Shown: positions 933-8,641 of the stretch, piece by piece
How the letters are laid out: every line of letters starts with the position of its first letter
How positions within the stretch are numbered: the stretch's first letter is position 1
NCBI GenBank assembly: GCA_017962025.1
Contig: JAGCWD010000087.1
Location: forward strand, 1 to 54,013
From: Bacteroidales bacterium
Lineage (GTDB): Bacteria; Bacteroidota; Bacteroidia; Bacteroidales; UBA932
Reading direction: 5' to 3'
Length of the DNA: 54,013 nucleotides
Notes under the pieces: generated by a model
Seen by the model: the letters and a program-made list of their open reading frames with translations, nothing else
What the model was told of the DNA's origin: nothing
Databases searched by the model: none
Position numbers and translations under genes: made by a program

Positions 933-968
933 GCCAGGGAAACTAGACCTTTTCCTGGCTTTTTTTGT
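933..968 (+). terminator. Rho-independent terminator of the EEP-family gene
   Basis: A 10-bp stem (933-942 with 950-959, one G-T wobble) closes a 7-nt loop and is followed by seven T residues. It sits 24 bases downstream of the preceding stop codon and insulates that gene from the transposase unit to the right. Confidence 0.85.
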
Positions 969-1003
969 ACAAGGTGTAACAACAAACCGGGGACCTTGCT
1001 CAC
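967..1003 (+). repeat. REP-like palindrome, copy A-left
   Basis: An imperfect palindrome with arms CAAGGT and ACCTTG, loop-side GTAAC, and flanking GT/CAC. It is the inverted orientation of the copy at 1030-1066 and is related to the copies at 2456 and 2519. With 1030-1066 it forms an inverted pair at the 3' end of the transposase gene, as REP/BIME elements do around RAYT genes. The outer arm bases of this copy have degenerated. Confidence 0.7.
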
Positions 1004-1029
1004 AAATCTAATCATCATCTACTCTCAAC

Positions 1030-1066
1030 GTGCAAGGTCCCAATACTGGAATTACACCTTGCACAA
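1030..1066 (-). repeat. REP-like palindrome, copy B-left (identical to B-right)
   Basis: 37 bases identical to 2519-2555. Arms GTGCAAGGT and ACCTTGCAC form a 9-bp stem. The right part (1052-1066) encodes the last residues (LCKV) and TAA stop of the transposase on the minus strand, so the palindrome overlaps the end of the gene and could also shape its mRNA 3' end. Confidence 0.85.
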
Positions 1067-1975
1067 AAGACGTCTGATATCATCCCTGGAAATACCAAAA
1101 CATCGTGCCATTTGGGGTATCGTTGTTTTCATGGTATGATAAATATATGGTATTAACCGAACCTTCTTGGATAGTGGCAGACTGCTAACCCCTGCCATGA
1201 ACCATCTCATCGAAACATCTTCGATTTCCTTGTAAAACTCTTCATCCGTTTTCATCTTTCTTGGAGATACTACAAGTTTCAGGGTCATTTCCGGCACATT
1301 GACAGAACCTATACATCTGTAGAAAAACGCCTCGTCATTTCCAAAAGCCTTTTCCAGATAGTGTATGTCACATGCGCTCCCTGGCTCCAGTTCATCATCA
1401 GAATTCAGTTTCCAAGGGACGTTACTCAGATTATCCCCAGTATGCATTATATCTCTCCACTCCCTTCGAGTCAGTTTTGCAACGGGTCTTAGCCGGCCAT
1501 TATCCGGAACAGTCCTGAAAAACGCACGGAATCCGGTCCATTTATAATCCATTAGACTTTCGGCTCCATTGTCATAGGCATTCCTGGGAATATAGGCCAA
1601 CACATTTCTCAGGTACCAATCAGTGTCTATAGATTGGACATTTGCATCTGTTCCTCGCAATACTTTGGATTCACCATACTTCTTTCTGAATAACTGGGAA
1701 TACGTCCGTTTCACCTCTTCTCCAAATGCTTTGGCTTCAGTGAAAGTCCTTGCCAAAACTGCAACATGGGCATGGTTGGAGACCACGGCGTAAATAATTA
1801 CAATCACGTTCTTCCTTTTGGAACACACGAAGATACATTTGACCAATGTGTCGCAGTCCCCATCATCCCTGCAAATAATCGCTTTCTCCAAACCTTCGAA
1901 GCTTAAATGAAAAGGAAAAACTGAGCTGACAGTACCGTCAGGAAGTATCTTGGAGACCGGCCGAATCAATCCCAT
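1052..1975 (-). CDS. REP-associated (IS200-like, Y1 HUH) transposase
   Basis: A 307-residue protein with the Y1 transposase signature: the HUH motif in VVSNHAHVAVL (about residue 67) and, about 50 residues later, a helix with the candidate nucleophilic Tyr in DTDWYLRNVLAYIPRNAY. The C-terminus (PQMARCFGISRDDIRRLL) looks like a helix-turn-helix, as in RAYT proteins that bind REP hairpins. Family members nick single-stranded hairpin DNA through a 5'-phosphotyrosine. The start ATG overlaps the upstream gene's stop by one base (TAATG), so the two are translationally coupled. Its stop codon lies inside a palindrome whose exact copy stands upstream of the pair. Base use is more A/T-rich than in the neighbours, which suggests acquisition. 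No typical IS ends or target duplications were seen. Confidence 0.85.
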   Translation of the reverse strand: MGLIRPVSKILPDGTVSSVFPFHLSFEGLEKAIICRDDGDCDTLVKCIFVCSKRKNVIVIIYAVVSNHAHVAVLARTFTEAKAFGEEVKRTYSQLFRKKYGESKVLRGTDANVQSIDTDWYLRNVLAYIPRNAYDNGAESLMDYKWTGFRAFFRTVPDNGRLRPVAKLTRREWRDIMHTGDNLSNVPWKLNSDDELEPGSACDIHYLEKAFGNDEAFFYRCIGSVNVPEMTLKLVVSPRKMKTDEEFYKEIEDVSMRWFMAGVSSLPLSKKVRLIPYIYHTMKTTIPQMARCFGISRDDIRRLLCKV

Positions 1976-2391
1976 TAGTTCATTCCTTTTCTCGTGATCA
2001 TTCCTGATTCAAAAAGACCGCAGTCTCCAAATGAAACAGGGCGCTGCTTGGCAGATGGGTCATACCCATATTTCATCTTCAGCGAATCAGCATATTTCTC
2101 GGTGGAGGGAATACATTTGAACATCATCATTGACCAGAATTCCTCTGCTTGGGCATAAGGCTCTGCACAAGCGCAGATTTCAGCCATACTCAAAAGCCTG
2201 ATTACCTTGCTAATACCGGTCACCCTCTTTTCCCACATCCTGTCAATCATGCTGGCAAGAATCCTCCTAAAGAAAGACTTTGTTTTTTTAGGGTTATCAA
2301 AAGAAAAATTACGGTCGATGATTGACTCGTTTTCACATCGAAGGTCCAGATTGCCTTCTTCATCAATAAAGACTTCAAGAAGCTTTTTCAT
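1975..2391 (-). CDS. Unknown small protein coupled to the transposase
   Basis: I do not recognise this 138-residue protein. The start chosen is the ATG at 2391 (MKKLLEVFIDEEG); the open frame continues to 2448 but the extra residues look like 5' leader. It is soluble-looking, with an acidic N-terminus (FIDEEGNLDLRCENES), a basic helical middle (NPKKTKSFFRRILASMIDRMWEKR) and a Cys/Ala-rich helix (EICACAEPYAQAEEFW). No membrane segment or metal motif is evident. It shares a TAATG stop/start overlap with the downstream HUH transposase and lies inside the same bracket of palindromes, so it probably works with, or controls, that enzyme. The basic middle could bind nucleic acid; that is a guess. 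Confidence 0.6.
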   Translation of the reverse strand: MKKLLEVFIDEEGNLDLRCENESIIDRNFSFDNPKKTKSFFRRILASMIDRMWEKRVTGISKVIRLLSMAEICACAEPYAQAEEFWSMMMFKCIPSTEKYADSLKMKYGYDPSAKQRPVSFGDCGLFESGMITRKGMN

Positions 2392-2455
2392 AATTTTAAA
2401 AAGTTTGGTTTCCGAGACTAATGTAGCTATTATCATCTTTCGGAACAAGAAAAAT

Positions 2456-2490
2456 GTTCAAGATGTAACAAAATACAGGAGACCTTGAAC
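2456..2490 (+). repeat. REP-like palindrome, copy A-right
   Basis: Arms GTTCAAG and CTTGAAC pair over 7 bp around a GTAAC-containing loop. Relative to copy B (GTGCAAG/CTTGCAC) the third base pair changed from G-C to T-A on both sides, a compensatory change that argues the hairpin itself is under selection. It lies just upstream of the two-gene transposase unit. Confidence 0.75.
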
Positions 2491-2518
2491 ACAACACATA
2501 ACTCCAAAGCATAATTGC

Positions 2519-2555
2519 GTGCAAGGTCCCAATACTGGAATTACACCTTGCACAA
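2519..2555 (-). repeat. REP-like palindrome, copy B-right (identical to B-left)
   Basis: An exact 37-base direct repeat of 1030-1066, in the same orientation, at the far side of the transposase unit. With 2456-2490 it makes an inverted pair that mirrors the left pair, so both ends carry an A-B module of about 100 bp. Confidence 0.85.
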
Positions 2556-2634: not shown

Positions 2635-3444
2635 ATGAGACATATAAGAATCATACTGTCTGCAGTTGCTGTCGCGGCCACACTGTTCGCCGTCACATTC
2701 TGCAGCGGCCGCAGCGATAAGGAACTCAAAGCTATAGTCCTGGATATGTGCAGATACATTCCGGACCACGGAATGAGGGATGACGCCGAAGATAATCTCA
2801 CTAATAGTTACTTTGATGCTTATTCCGGTGCCCTCAACTCAATACCGGAAAACGATGGTATGATCGGAGATGAAGAGTTCCTCTATTATTTCGTTTCCGG
2901 GCAGGATGGAGAACCAGAATTCAAGGTCAAGTCGGTAGAGCAAAAAGGGGACAGCCTTGTAGCAATGATAATCCTTCAGGACAACACCCCTCACGTGGTA
3001 AAACTCGTGAAGGAAGGCGGACGATACCTGCTGGACGATTTTGACGACACAAAGCAGCTGTGCCTGAACTTCATCAAATCCCATGATAAATACTCTGGAG
3101 AATGGGCGGAGAAAACCGCTGAGAGGATAGTAGCCGTTTTTACCCCAATAGAAAATGGGTATAAAGTAAAGATAGGTTGGCGCGAAGAGGGGCTTGCCCA
3201 ATATGAGATTTGGGAAATGACCGCTGTTACGGACGGAAACGGAGGGCTGACCTATGATGACGCAACCTACAAAGTCCGCCAGTACGAGCATCAAGGGGAC
3301 AAGGATTATAAGGAGAATACCGTTTATACTGATGGGGCAGGGGCCTTCTGCCTGAATGACGAAGGTGAACTTGTTTGGAAAGACGGCAAGAACCCTGAAC
3401 AGGAAGAGACTCCGTTCATCAGAGCAAACTTTACTACCGAATAG
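2635..3444 (+). CDS. Lipoprotein of unknown function
   Basis: A 269-residue protein with a lipoprotein signal peptide (MRHIRIILSAVAVAATLFA, then VTFCSGRS with lipid-attachment Cys23). The first half (about 28-150) resembles the small alpha/beta DUF3828-type domains (EFLYYFVSGQDGEPEF, then alternating strands). The second half (about 160-265) is an all-beta module with WREEGLAQYEIWEM, TDGAGAFCLNDEGELVW, a pattern seen at the C-terminus of many uncharacterised bacterial exported proteins. No catalytic residues stand out. The next gene starts four bases after its stop, so it is probably the first gene of a rightward unit with the DUF4153 membrane protein. A precise role cannot be given. Confidence 0.75.
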   Translation: MRHIRIILSAVAVAATLFAVTFCSGRSDKELKAIVLDMCRYIPDHGMRDDAEDNLTNSYFDAYSGALNSIPENDGMIGDEEFLYYFVSGQDGEPEFKVKSVEQKGDSLVAMIILQDNTPHVVKLVKEGGRYLLDDFDDTKQLCLNFIKSHDKYSGEWAEKTAERIVAVFTPIENGYKVKIGWREEGLAQYEIWEMTAVTDGNGGLTYDDATYKVRQYEHQGDKDYKENTVYTDGAGAFCLNDEGELVWKDGKNPEQEETPFIRANFTTE

Positions 3445-3448
3445 GGCC

Positions 3449-4867
3449 ATGTCCGGATTGTCAAACAGCATAAGGAACCTTTGCCTCGGTATGGCAGGAA
3501 GCCTGAAGGAATATCCCCTTGAGGCACTTCTGGGAATTACGTATTTCCTGCTATTTGCCATATGGAACAAGACTGACATATTGGTCTGGTTCTTCCCTCA
3601 CTACGTCCTGCTCTACACCCTTCACAAGTTCAGCAGGAAAAGTGACCTGATGAAGATCCTGTACATCCTGTCCTGGTTCCTTTGGATTCCCCTGCTGCTC
3701 TGGGGGACCAATTATTCTGGATGGCATGCAGGTGTTGCATATCTTATCGCCCTGATTCTCCTGGTAATCGGCGAAAAGCCCCTGGATAACGAATCCTTTG
3801 GCAGGAATATCCTGAACATGGCCATCAAGGTGGCACTGGGTTTCCTCATAGGAGCTCTGCTCATGGGTATCGTTACTGCCATAATTGGTTCTGTCAATCT
3901 CCTGTTCGACCTGAACCTGAATGACGAATGGTTCACCTATCCGAACGCATTCATCGCCTTGGTAGTAATCCCCCTGCTATGCTGCTGGTCAGTCAGCCGT
4001 CCTTCGGTGGAAACGAAGGATAATAAACTCCTGCAGATTGCAATAGACTACATCCTGTCCCCTGCTCTGGTCATATATTCAGTTATCCTTTACGCCTACA
4101 TCGCAAGGATTCTCTTCCGTTGGGAACTGCCGGTCGGAGGTGTCGCCTACATGGTACTCACTTTCTCCGCAATCGCCCTGCTTTGCTACCTGTTCCGCCT
4201 TCAGATAGGGAAGAGGCATTTCGAGTGGTTCTACAAGGCTTTCCCGGTAATCGCCATCCCTCCGCTGATCCTGTTGTGGATAGGGACATTACGCCGTATA
4301 GGGGAATATGGTATCACAGAGCCACGGTTCTATCTTCTTCTCCTGGCCATTCTGGTGACCATATTCGTTGCAATGCTCCCTAGGGAGAAAACCAGGAAAT
4401 TCCAGTTGATGACGCTCATCCTGGCTGCCGCCGCCATCCTGTCCACCTATATTCCAGGAATAAGGGCCAAGGATTTCGAAATAAGGAGCCAGCGGAACCG
4501 GCCTGTCGAGGAGATTTCAGGACCTGAAGATAACACCAATAAAGTAATCGAGCCACAAATCTCGTCGGTCAACGACATTGGAGAACCCGTGGACCTGGAA
4601 GGATACACCCTGTTTATCCCTCGTTCTGAGTATCATTATTACGAAGATTCAGCCAAGGCGGTTTTCTACCAAGACGAGACGAGGACGGAACCCCTCCTTG
4701 AATGCAATATACTCGAAATGCTTGAAGACGGAAGTAAGGATCCTGCCAGCAAACTGATTTACAAGAATGACCGCTACATGGCGGTATTCAATATGATAGA
4801 AGACAGACGCGGCTCTGGAAATGCAAACTTCCTGACTTCAGGCGCGATGCTCTTCCGTAAACCTTGA
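3449..4867 (+). CDS. DUF4153-type polytopic membrane protein
   Basis: The ATG at 3449 was chosen because it follows the previous stop by four bases; an in-frame start at 3356 would overlap that gene by 89 bases. The 472-residue product has about ten hydrophobic segments in its first 330 residues (for example ALLGITYFLLFAIW, VALGFLIGALLMGIVTAIIG, LVVIPLLCCWSVSRP, FYLLLLAILVTIFVAML), matching DUF4153 proteins. The C-terminal 110 residues are soluble, begin after a last helix ending in LSTYIPGIRAKDFEIRSQ, and form a beta-rich domain (VDLEGYTLFIPRSEYHYYE). DUF4153 proteins have no established biochemical role. It touches the downstream winged-helix gene and probably shares its transcript. Confidence 0.8.
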   Translation: MSGLSNSIRNLCLGMAGSLKEYPLEALLGITYFLLFAIWNKTDILVWFFPHYVLLYTLHKFSRKSDLMKILYILSWFLWIPLLLWGTNYSGWHAGVAYLIALILLVIGEKPLDNESFGRNILNMAIKVALGFLIGALLMGIVTAIIGSVNLLFDLNLNDEWFTYPNAFIALVVIPLLCCWSVSRPSVETKDNKLLQIAIDYILSPALVIYSVILYAYIARILFRWELPVGGVAYMVLTFSAIALLCYLFRLQIGKRHFEWFYKAFPVIAIPPLILLWIGTLRRIGEYGITEPRFYLLLLAILVTIFVAMLPREKTRKFQLMTLILAAAAILSTYIPGIRAKDFEIRSQRNRPVEEISGPEDNTNKVIEPQISSVNDIGEPVDLEGYTLFIPRSEYHYYEDSAKAVFYQDETRTEPLLECNILEMLEDGSKDPASKLIYKNDRYMAVFNMIEDRRGSGNANFLTSGAMLFRKP

Positions 4868-6561: not shown

Positions 6562-8641
6562 CCCGGCCAAAAAGATAGAATTTGTAGTCGTTGAACCACA
6601 GGATTCCCTTCCCGTCGGCAAAAGTATAACTCGTATAGAACGAATTTCCCATGTCCCTGGGCGAGAACAGTTCAGGGGAAGAGAACCATATCGGCTGCTC
6701 GGCGTCCGGCACGAACGTGCCTTCTATCTTGTACAGCGGACCGCGTATCTGGTAGGCTGTGATTCCATCGAAATCAAAAGTGTTGTGTATCAAGGCGAAA
6801 TACTTACCGCTATGGGCTTCAGGCCCGTTCAGGTCATAAATGGGGCATGGTGACCTCGGATGCTTGAAAGCCGTACCTCCGTCTTTGTCCAGTAGTATTT
6901 TCGGCGTTGACCAAGTGCGGCCGTGATCGCTGCTCTGCGACCAGACCGGATGACCGAGTGAGGATCTCATCAGAGCAAAGAGACGTCGGTCAGGAAGGCC
7001 GACTATGGAGGCTTCCTCAACTGCGGGACCTTCCCTGGGGACATATTCGATGTCTGTGTCCACCTTGGTAGCGTCAAACGACTGCCGGCCGGTGGAGAAG
7101 AAGGAAATCTTTATGTCTTTTACCTCGGGGTCATCGTCGATGTTCTCATATTGCCAGAATTCCACCTTGCAGCCGGGGCTTTCGTCGTAGGGCGCCTTGC
7201 CATGGCGGGAGCAGCCCACTAGATATTTACCGCCTTCGCCGAGACGGAGCGGACGCTGCCAGTTGCACCAGGACGGAGGAATGGAAGGATCTTCCGGATC
7301 TGAGTCCATCCTCCCGGGGAATGGAACCACTTCCGGTTCGCTCCAAGTCTCACCGGCATCGTCTGAATACCTCCCGTACATCAGACCGCAAAGATGCTGC
7401 TTTACTGTCGTTTCCTGGTTCCAGAGACAATAAAGCCTACCACTCCTTGAGAGCATGGGCTGCTGCCATCCGGCTACGGGAACCGGATTTGCCCTGTCGT
7501 GGGAACCGGCCAGCAGGACCGGATCAGTCCAAGTCTTGCCGCCGTCCGAACTCTTGGAGAATGCGATATGTTCGTCTTCGCAGGCTTCGTGTGATCCCTG
7601 GGTCCAGAATGCGTACAACAGGCCTCTGGCGGGATCGTCAAGGACGTGGAAATGGTCGTTGAAAGTATCCCCTATAGCCGAGAAATCCCTCTTTGATTCA
7701 TCCTGGGGCTGTTTCGGAACATAAACGACAAAATCGTGAGGGACAACGTCCATATCGGTCGAAGGATCGATGTAGTGCCACCAGAAATGGTCGGGATAGC
7801 GTTCCTGCCACTTTCCGACATCTTTAAAATGCTTTTCGTAAGCTTCTTCTGCCGAATCGAAACGGTGGTATATCTCCGATGCTTCGGTGCCCACTGTCCA
7901 GGGAGTCTGGTTGGCAGCAAACTGCCCGGGATGCCCGACCCAGACTATTGAGCCCTTCTTTGGATAAAACCTGCGGTCAAGGGCAAAGACCTGGGTAAGG
8001 ACGGTGTTGTCGCTCCTGAAAGGAGGTATCGAGAACATAAGGGACAAGTCCCTGCGATGGATCTTTCCTTCCCTTTCCGGTGTATATTTGTCCGGGACAT
8101 AGACTATCCCGTCGTCAGGCACACGCCTGGCATCAATCTGTCCTCCTTTCTTCACTTCGCAGATCCATCCTTCATGCTGATCTGCCACAAGGTAGGTCCT
8201 TCCAGGATCCTTTACACATAGGGAATCAGTCATCCTGCTTATTATCCCCACAGCTTCCGCGGCTGAATGAGCCTCCCGTGCTACGGCTGTCCGCACGGAG
8301 TAAATCTTTTCCTTGGCGGAACGGCTCCCACGGGGGCGCGGACCTACGGAAGCAAGGCAGACGCCATATTCATTCATGTAACTGTCGGACGCCGCCTCAC
8401 CGGGGAACTCGAACCATAGGCTGGCGCACCTGTCTTCCCCTGCAGGCACATTGTAGATGTTTAGCATCTGCTTGCCGTCGAGATTTGTGTTATGCGCCAG
8501 ATAGACGCAACCATCGGTTGTTGCCTCTGCTCCGGCAATGACACCGACACCGTCCCACCCGTCGTTCCTTTCGCAACTGCAGAAAACGACGGCAACAACT
8601 ACAAATGCCTGAATATATTTGATTGCCTTTCCCCTATTCAC
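6539..8641 (-). CDS. Fusion of C69-peptidase-like domain and sialidase-fold (BNR) domain, lipoprotein
   Basis: A 700-residue lipoprotein (AVVFCSCERN; Cys about 22). It starts at a GTG, because an in-frame TGA lies just upstream and no ATG precedes the signal peptide. Residues about 30-270 follow the peptidase C69 (dipeptidase/secernin) pattern: GAEATTDGCVYLAHNTN, NEYGVCLA, TYLVADQHEGWICEV, RRVPDDGIVYVPDKY. The N-terminal nucleophilic Cys of C69 enzymes falls where this protein has Gly (DGVGVIAG), so that domain is probably inactive or altered. Residues about 330-690 are a six-blade sialidase-type propeller with three Asp boxes (SSDGGKTW, SDDAGETW, SSDHGRTW). The DUF1080 fusion gene stops 9 bases upstream, implying one transcript. 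Target is unknown; a glycan or glycopeptide is plausible. Confidence 0.75.
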   Translation of the reverse strand: MNRGKAIKYIQAFVVVAVVFCSCERNDGWDGVGVIAGAEATTDGCVYLAHNTNLDGKQMLNIYNVPAGEDRCASLWFEFPGEAASDSYMNEYGVCLASVGPRPRGSRSAKEKIYSVRTAVAREAHSAAEAVGIISRMTDSLCVKDPGRTYLVADQHEGWICEVKKGGQIDARRVPDDGIVYVPDKYTPEREGKIHRRDLSLMFSIPPFRSDNTVLTQVFALDRRFYPKKGSIVWVGHPGQFAANQTPWTVGTEASEIYHRFDSAEEAYEKHFKDVGKWQERYPDHFWWHYIDPSTDMDVVPHDFVVYVPKQPQDESKRDFSAIGDTFNDHFHVLDDPARGLLYAFWTQGSHEACEDEHIAFSKSSDGGKTWTDPVLLAGSHDRANPVPVAGWQQPMLSRSGRLYCLWNQETTVKQHLCGLMYGRYSDDAGETWSEPEVVPFPGRMDSDPEDPSIPPSWCNWQRPLRLGEGGKYLVGCSRHGKAPYDESPGCKVEFWQYENIDDDPEVKDIKISFFSTGRQSFDATKVDTDIEYVPREGPAVEEASIVGLPDRRLFALMRSSLGHPVWSQSSDHGRTWSTPKILLDKDGGTAFKHPRSPCPIYDLNGPEAHSGKYFALIHNTFDFDGITAYQIRGPLYKIEGTFVPDAEQPIWFSSPELFSPRDMGNSFYTSYTFADGKGILWFNDYKFYLFGRVMTPDHP

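Follow-up and report, generated by a model that had tools for sequence, protein, structure and literature searches.

We identified two overlapping genes bracketed by paired inverted hairpins in a Bacteroidales genome, and propose that they form part of an unusual branch of the REPIN-RAYT systems (REPtrons), in which a Y1/HUH enzyme would mobilize short hairpin doublets (REPINs), the gene pair is inherited vertically and the second, partner gene is accessory. We put the probability of this reading at roughly 0.8. It draws on the anatomy of the locus, the geometry of the repeats, covariation in their stems, their dispersal and association with the Y1 gene, and purifying selection on both genes, all read from sequence; catalysis, mobilization and the role of the partner are predicted.

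The stretch of DNA that was analysed (54,013 nt, hereafter the window) corresponds to contig C37 in a draft assembly (G000) of 2.27 Mb and 81 % completeness. Its close relatives with names are 'uncultured Bacteroidales/Bacteroidia' assemblies, two of which bear RUG isolate names, where RUG presumably stands for rumen. The two overlapping genes and the hairpin pairs on either side of them were confirmed as a real feature (Table 1). The stop codon of the partner gene and the start codon of the Y1 gene overlap by one base (TAATG), the junction reading ...AACTAATGG, and an in-frame TTG at 2448 offers an alternative start that would give a partner of 157 aa. Each 98 nt REPIN consists of two inverted 35 nt hairpins, and the left and right REPINs agree at 73 of the 98 positions. 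The Y1 gene ends inside the left REPIN, which includes its final three codons and its stop (window 1052-1064); the Y1 stop codon lies inside a REPIN in RUG12500 too, and the Y1 gene of RUG790 ends without one. The direct repeat formed by the 'B' copies is exact, as the original prediction had stated, but measured 38 nt instead of 37.

Table 1. Positions of the gene pair and of the flanking repeats in the window
Feature	Position	Strand	Evidence
Y1/HUH gene, RAYT-like, long, 307 aa	1052..1975	-	ORF; weak Pfam Y1_Tnp match; 15-sequence alignment
Partner gene, 138 aa from ATG, no family match	1975..2391	-	ORF; dN/dS 0.083 against RUG12500
REPIN 3' of Y1: inverted hairpins 967-1001 and 1030-1064, 28 nt spacer	967..1064	.	
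REPIN 5' of partner gene: inverted hairpins 2456-2490 and 2519-2553, 28 nt spacer	2456..2553	.	
38 nt exact direct repeat, left copy ('B')	1029..1066	+	
38 nt exact direct repeat, right copy ('B')	2518..2555	+	

The window Y1 protein carries the HUH motif NHAH at residues 67-70 and ends in an HTH-like tail; Tyr128, within Y-I-P-R-N-A-Y-D, is its presumed catalytic tyrosine. Pfam Y1_Tnp matched the protein at E=0.015, below the curated cut-off and level with the value for the E. coli K-12 RAYT (E=0.017), and matched 13 of 15 relatives at E up to 1 (best 1.7e-5). SNHxH (of the VSNHxH type, with one VMSNHGH) and Y-x-x-R-N-A-x-D were present in all 24 aligned Y1 relatives. The tyrosine motif of all 24 is therefore Y---NA, whereas class 2 TnpAREP proteins are marked by Y---NP, and none of the subclass motifs listed in the descriptions of PMC6006769 is Y---NA. 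When aligned by hhalign with the single E. coli RAYT sequence, the HUH motif and the tyrosine fell into register, at a low probability of 1.3 % (E 0.039). Weak C-terminal matches of HTH type were obtained (HTH_PafC in 4/15 members, MarR_2 in 2/15), and a PDB search with the Y1 profile returned four weak matches, all to one ubiquitin ligase. The HUH and tyrosine motifs, together with the REPINs on both sides, bear out the original prediction of a RAYT-like Y1 flanked by REP pairs.

This Y1 is present as one copy in the window genome, which holds three further long Y1-like matches (on contigs C116, C24 and C11); scanning of the C116 and C24 loci revealed no REPINs of the window type. Two full-length Y1 genes of the REPIN branch occur together in each of three family genomes (G034, G091 and G027). 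At order level (344 genomes, E up to 1e-30), the Y1 profile found its own genome and one weak match in the same genus only, and in the genomes sampled the branch is confined to one Bacteroidales family. No relative was confirmed on viral contigs, and the plasmid search gave one weak, partial match (24 % identity over 42 %). Neither Y1 nor partner matched in PADLOC at E up to 0.1, and on that ground a defence-system identity of the gene pair was rejected.

The repeats themselves have a rigid geometry. Each REP is a 9 bp stem ending in AGGT/ACCT, with a loop that is nearly always 17 nt long. A scan of the sequence up to 700 bp from the 24 Y1 genes, requiring no pairing outside the AGGT/ACCT core, gave 39 AGGT-N17-ACCT sites, 34 of them with at least four of five further stem pairs. 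Each of the other loop lengths between 8 and 30 gave 0-7 sites, with at most one such stem; the single well-paired stem off length 17 had a loop of 16 and came from locus L068. One mononucleotide shuffle of the same 186 kb yielded no hairpin pairs, compared with 33 in the real sequence. At 20 of the 24 loci, a REPIN with inverted hairpins lay no more than 1 kb from Y1; the partial Y1 copies G079:C15 and G079:C19 are not counted among these loci.

Across 58 REPs, each of stem pairs 2-5 took two to four different Watson-Crick forms; pair 5, for example, was found as A-T, T-A, G-C and C-G. It should be noted that the hairpin finder behind this covariation demanded some pairing; the unbiased loop-length scan agrees with it. 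The unpaired GT[AG]G that TnpAREP repeats have at the hairpin foot, directly before the stem, was present in 0/62 REPs. GTGG straddling the foot, with GG within the stem, was seen in 7/62, compared with 5 % of random 12-mers of these loci. The composite hairpin pairs L055_4578 and L067_2838 were excluded from both counts, and the L068 repeats, with their 16 nt loop, were excluded from the 58-REP covariation set and included in the 62-REP foot count.

To examine the family as a whole, we searched 199 genomes for the self-complementary pattern AGGT-N17-ACCT-N35..65-AGGT-N17-ACCT. It was found at 123 places in 30 genomes, whereas the reversed control pattern gave 17 places in 12 genomes, which we regard as the noise level. 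Of the 18 genomes that have a close homologue of Y1 (E up to 1e-70), 16 contained the pattern, as did 14 of the 181 that have none (p=1.2e-13). This p-value is optimistic, since the genomes are relatives of one another and some of their Y1 flanks served to define the pattern. The reversed pattern showed no such association (1/18 with Y1, 11/181 without; p=0.69). The Y1-positive genomes without the pattern were G102 and G084 (16 nt loop).

Spacer lengths fell into classes. Among the 75 matches listed of the 123, spacers were 26-28 nt (n=16), 40 nt (n=22), 49 nt (n=25) and 51 nt (n=8); three of the remaining four places overlap neighbouring REPINs, and the fourth, in G170, resembles coding sequence. 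The commonest lengths correspond to centre-to-centre distances of 63, 75, 84 and 86 nt, or 6.0, 7.1, 8.0 and 8.2 helical turns at 10.5 per turn and hence close to whole turns, which is an observation and not a test. Spacer class and stem were constant within each supported branch of the Y1 tree where measured, and the same spacer class recurs in more than one branch; in this tree, the mis-started N-terminus of L063 was trimmed and the distant outgroup rows stand on long branches.

REPINs also occur away from the gene. In eight of the nine Y1-positive genomes for which all places were listed, a copy was found on another contig or far from Y1, G129 being the only exception, and G011 had several copies away from Y1 among the matches listed. 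In the window genome, the 31-mer core of B, allowing up to three mismatches, was restricted to the two window places; the search for the palindrome across this genome and its relatives, which had been suggested as a check, nevertheless succeeded, since the whole A-B unit is present in more diverged form at C1:10799-10901 and C34:31011-31113 and the pattern recurs through the family. No Y1 gene was seen in the 4.5-5 kb fetched at the C1 and C34 sites. Numbers are low: positive genomes have 1-12 REPINs each by the strict pattern, far below classic REP families, and only four were found in the window genome, two of them at the gene pair, which we counted against the REPIN-RAYT reading.

In genome G034, there are two Y1 genes, which belong to separate branches. 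A different REPIN type borders each of them (GGGGTAGGT with spacer 27, and GGGCAAGGT with spacer 40), and the genome contains three and seven copies of these types, respectively, counting those at the flanks. With stem and spacer following the Y1 branch, and two enzymes accompanied by two repeat types in G034, the pairing of enzyme and repeat appears to be cognate.

One solo REPIN sits after tRNA-Pro and its terminator-like hairpin, as might be expected if the hairpin pairs were ordinary intergenic RNA elements, such as terminators or attenuators, lying near Y1 by chance. We consider this very unlikely, given that the presence of the repeats tracks this Y1 over 199 genomes, that the two-Y1 genome has two matching repeat types and that the window REPINs have no Rfam match. 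The sole match in the Rfam search, H19_3, was far below the cut-off and lay off the repeats, and a known RNA family was rejected. The rpsT/tRNA-Pro place was located in five of the six relatives searched: in G570, G607, G554 and G579 the stretch covered shows no such REPIN, and the REP present in G129 is of that genome's own type. This difference in presence speaks for the REPIN-RAYT reading, but no clean empty site for the solo REPIN emerged among the relatives searched, because the intergenic DNA is too diverged; the C1 site was comparable with relatives on one side only.

Several repeat observations concern other genomes. Five genomes without a close Y1 at E up to 1e-70 (G014, G067, G103, G144 and G187) had 6-8 matches to the REPIN pattern; the enzyme may have been lost, its contig may be missing, or another Y1 may mobilize the repeats. 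A general hairpin search at eight other, distant Y1 genes, some on short contigs, found no REPINs of the window type. At one distant Y1 with a partner (L081, G114:C52), tandem palindromes with a period of ~52 bp lie directly 3' of the gene (3262-3516), perhaps another repeat type.

The original prediction also held that the unit is carried as a module and had moved to its present position, as suggested by its A/T-richer base use. The gene pair is indeed G+C-poor (42.2 %, compared with 51.0 % for the window; 1/263 same-size sliding windows is as low). However, it is also G+C-poor in RUG12500 (44.8 compared with 51.2 %), and base composition is therefore no sign of recent arrival. The neighbourhood of the pair is common to four genomes (the window genome, RUG12500, taken to be the same genome as G570, RUG790 and G554), in a survey of 12 loci from the genome search and three named contigs. 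The Y1 proteins of these genomes share 65-87 % identity with that of the window. In each, an endonuclease-like gene is close to the pair, as is, where seen, one encoding a hydrophobic protein of ~480-550 aa (the far side is not covered in G554); a 220-230 aa gene adjoins the pair in RUG790 and G554. The pair is missing at that neighbourhood in G607, G585, G579 and G129, and in the last two the 220-230 aa gene is directly followed by the hydrophobic-protein gene. Six more distant loci (L124-L129) have the endonuclease-like gene only, with no Y1 in 3.8-4.7 kb. The Y1 genes of L049, G129 and G195 are at other genome places, which means that the position of the gene is not constant throughout the branch.

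Both genes are under strong purifying selection, with dN/dS of about 0.08. Measured against RUG12500, the ratio was 0.077 for Y1 (the partner value is given in Table 1) and 0.063 and 0.099 for the neighbour genes, and the synonymous divergence of the pair and of the neighbours was of the same order (0.84 and 0.49; 0.59 and 1.49). The shared neighbourhood, dN/dS and similar synonymous divergence led us to conclude that the pair is an old resident, and its recent arrival was rejected on neighbourhood and dN/dS. The same evidence bears on whether the whole unit is an autonomous two-gene transposon of IS200/IS605-like type, moving with the hairpin pairs as its ends. The identical 38 nt repeats at both ends and the low G+C content would suit such an element, but the single copy in the genome, the neighbourhood common to four genomes with Y1 identities of 65-87 %, the purifying selection and the hairpin pairs found without the genes make it highly improbable.

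Two further observations were made at the loci surveyed. In RUG12500 (L047, CACZCQ010000009.1), positions 7881-8086 match the group I intron family (Rfam RF00028, 51.8 bits compared with a gathering score of 50), which we read as sitting in a tRNA-Leu gene, where ARAGORN reports none. At L049, an intron-free tRNA-Leu(UAA) lies at 3103-3188, ~100 bp past the Y1 gene.

The partner profile detected 13 copies in 12 of the 199 family genomes, and at order level (344 genomes) its own genome only. All 13 copies adjoin a Y1-type gene, some of distant branches, and the partner therefore looks dedicated. Six of the 12 genomes have a REPIN-branch Y1; in the other six the Y1-type protein is distant. An alignment of five of the distant proteins matched the REPIN branch over nearly the full length (hhalign E 2.1e-24). 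Three were compared with Pfam Y1_Tnp: one matched (2.5e-5), and the assignment of the two that did not relies on NHxH-like and Y..N motifs and on the hhalign profile comparison. The arrangement varies: the partner is downstream of Y1 in genus g22 (four genomes), G096 has two tandem copies upstream of Y1, and in G084 a protein with a partner-like N-terminus is fused to an HRDC domain (Pfam 2.3e-18).

Across the 24 REPIN-branch loci, nine have a second gene (eight of the partner family, including that of L053, open only from an internal GTG, and one of the HRDC form) and one has a remnant; at the other 14, tblastn and reading of the upstream ORFs recognized none. This absence is least sure at L060, because only 216 bp of sequence lies upstream of Y1 there; the contigs of L029 and L065 are also short. 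Co-occurrence of the second gene with the transposase thus held for every partner copy, whereas the 'obligate' coupling of the original prediction did not, and we regard the partner as a recurrent but dispensable companion. In the case of L049, the partner is cut to a 35-codon remnant (1975-2082) that overlaps the start of an intact Y1.

What the partner does can be approached from this distribution. Its absence from most of the 24 loci might point to an unrelated passenger, but we find this improbable in view of the purifying selection on the gene and the 13/13 copies in 199 genomes that adjoin Y1-type genes of several distant branches. A more serious alternative accepts the REPIN-RAYT system and makes the partner an antitoxin-like inhibitor or repressor of the Y1 nuclease, not a targeting subunit. 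The partner gene precedes Y1 and the two overlap at stop and start, an arrangement seen with many antitoxins. We nevertheless hold this role doubtful, since 14/24 Y1 genes have no recognizable partner, L049 retains an intact Y1 beside a partner remnant, the partner is downstream of Y1 in genus g22 and one partner bears an HRDC nucleic-acid-binding domain. On balance, we lean slightly towards the partner being an accessory DNA-binding or regulatory subunit of Y1. More tentatively, the system could be a two-component domesticated transposase, in which one partner family (once with HRDC) serves several distant long-Y1 branches within one bacterial family and, in one of these branches, helps to handle the REPINs with 17 nt loops.

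For the REPIN-RAYT system itself, a nick-and-join mechanism is the best supported, by analogy with TnpAREP (as presented in PMC8266576 and PMC6006769) and from the association of repeats with Y1. Y1 would most likely recognize the folded, single-stranded REP hairpin (9 bp stem with AGGT/ACCT, 17 nt loop) and nick it through Tyr128. It would then join, move or copy the ~100 nt REPIN, a non-autonomous element, probably at the time of replication. The two genes would remain in place and be inherited vertically, as other domesticated RAYTs are, with the partner most likely acting as the accessory subunit.

It has long been asked why bacteria retain RAYT genes, and a recurrent partner protein represents a handle on RAYT function. 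With the rigid repeat geometry and the genome that has two enzyme-repeat pairs (G034), recognition of repeats by their enzymes could be tested cleanly in bacteria other than Proteobacteria. If the two-component reading is true, RAYT-type enzymes have dedicated cofactors, of which we found no description in the open-licence PMC literature; nor did we find there the Y---NA branch, the 17-nt-loop REPIN geometry or the partner family.

The system shares much with the proteobacterial REPIN-RAYT systems (TnpAREP; E. coli K-12 rayT, P. fluorescens SBW25): an HUH/Tyr protein with inverted REP doublets on its flanks, other copies of the doublets scattered at sites that lack the gene, a cognate repeat, vertical inheritance and an inter-REP spacing specific to the family, as with the characteristic spacings of 71 and 110 bp described for P. 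fluorescens in PMC3116915. Unlike those systems, it has no unpaired GT[AG]G foot, a 17 nt loop with the most constant stem bases adjoining it, Y---NA in place of Y---NP, low copy number and, in some genomes, a partner gene; the 307 aa window Y1 with its HTH-like tail also contrasts with the 165 aa E. coli RAYT. With respect to IS200/IS605, the HUH/Tyr enzyme and hairpin ends are alike, but those elements are mobile and multicopy, whereas here the gene is single-copy at a conserved position and the hairpin doublets occur alone.

The original prediction that such genes are known mainly in Proteobacteria has been overtaken, as RAYT subclasses 2.4 and 2.6 with flanking REP-like structures are already in print for Bacteroidetes (PMC6006769). 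According to the subclass descriptions in that paper, GT[AG]G at the hairpin foot belongs to subclasses 2.2, 2.4, 2.5, 2.7 and 2.8. Subclass 2.1.2 resembles our branch in joining the core to a C-terminal helix-turn-helix-like domain (DnaA_C/HTH-like tails), but is described with the motif YIELNP or Y[IV]HLNP, and 2.1 without REP-like sequences (PMC6006769). Subclass 2.4 (Cyanobacteria, Bacteroidetes and others) has 'double foot' REPs, which the seven GTGG-foot REPs recall; unlike our branch, it is described with YIxNNP, a median of 194 aa and REPs typically inside the gene (PMC6006769). The TnpAY1 proteins of subclass 2.6 are mostly from Bacteroidetes and likewise have atypical flanking structures without GT[AG]G and with copies elsewhere in the genome, but their description gives a median of 179 aa and the motif YIH[QN]NP and mentions no partner gene, in contrast to the ~307 aa and YxxRNAxD seen here (PMC6006769). 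Bacteroidetes RAYTs with odd flanks are therefore known from 2.6, and, judged by the subclass descriptions in PMC6006769, the present branch appears to stand outside all of those described.
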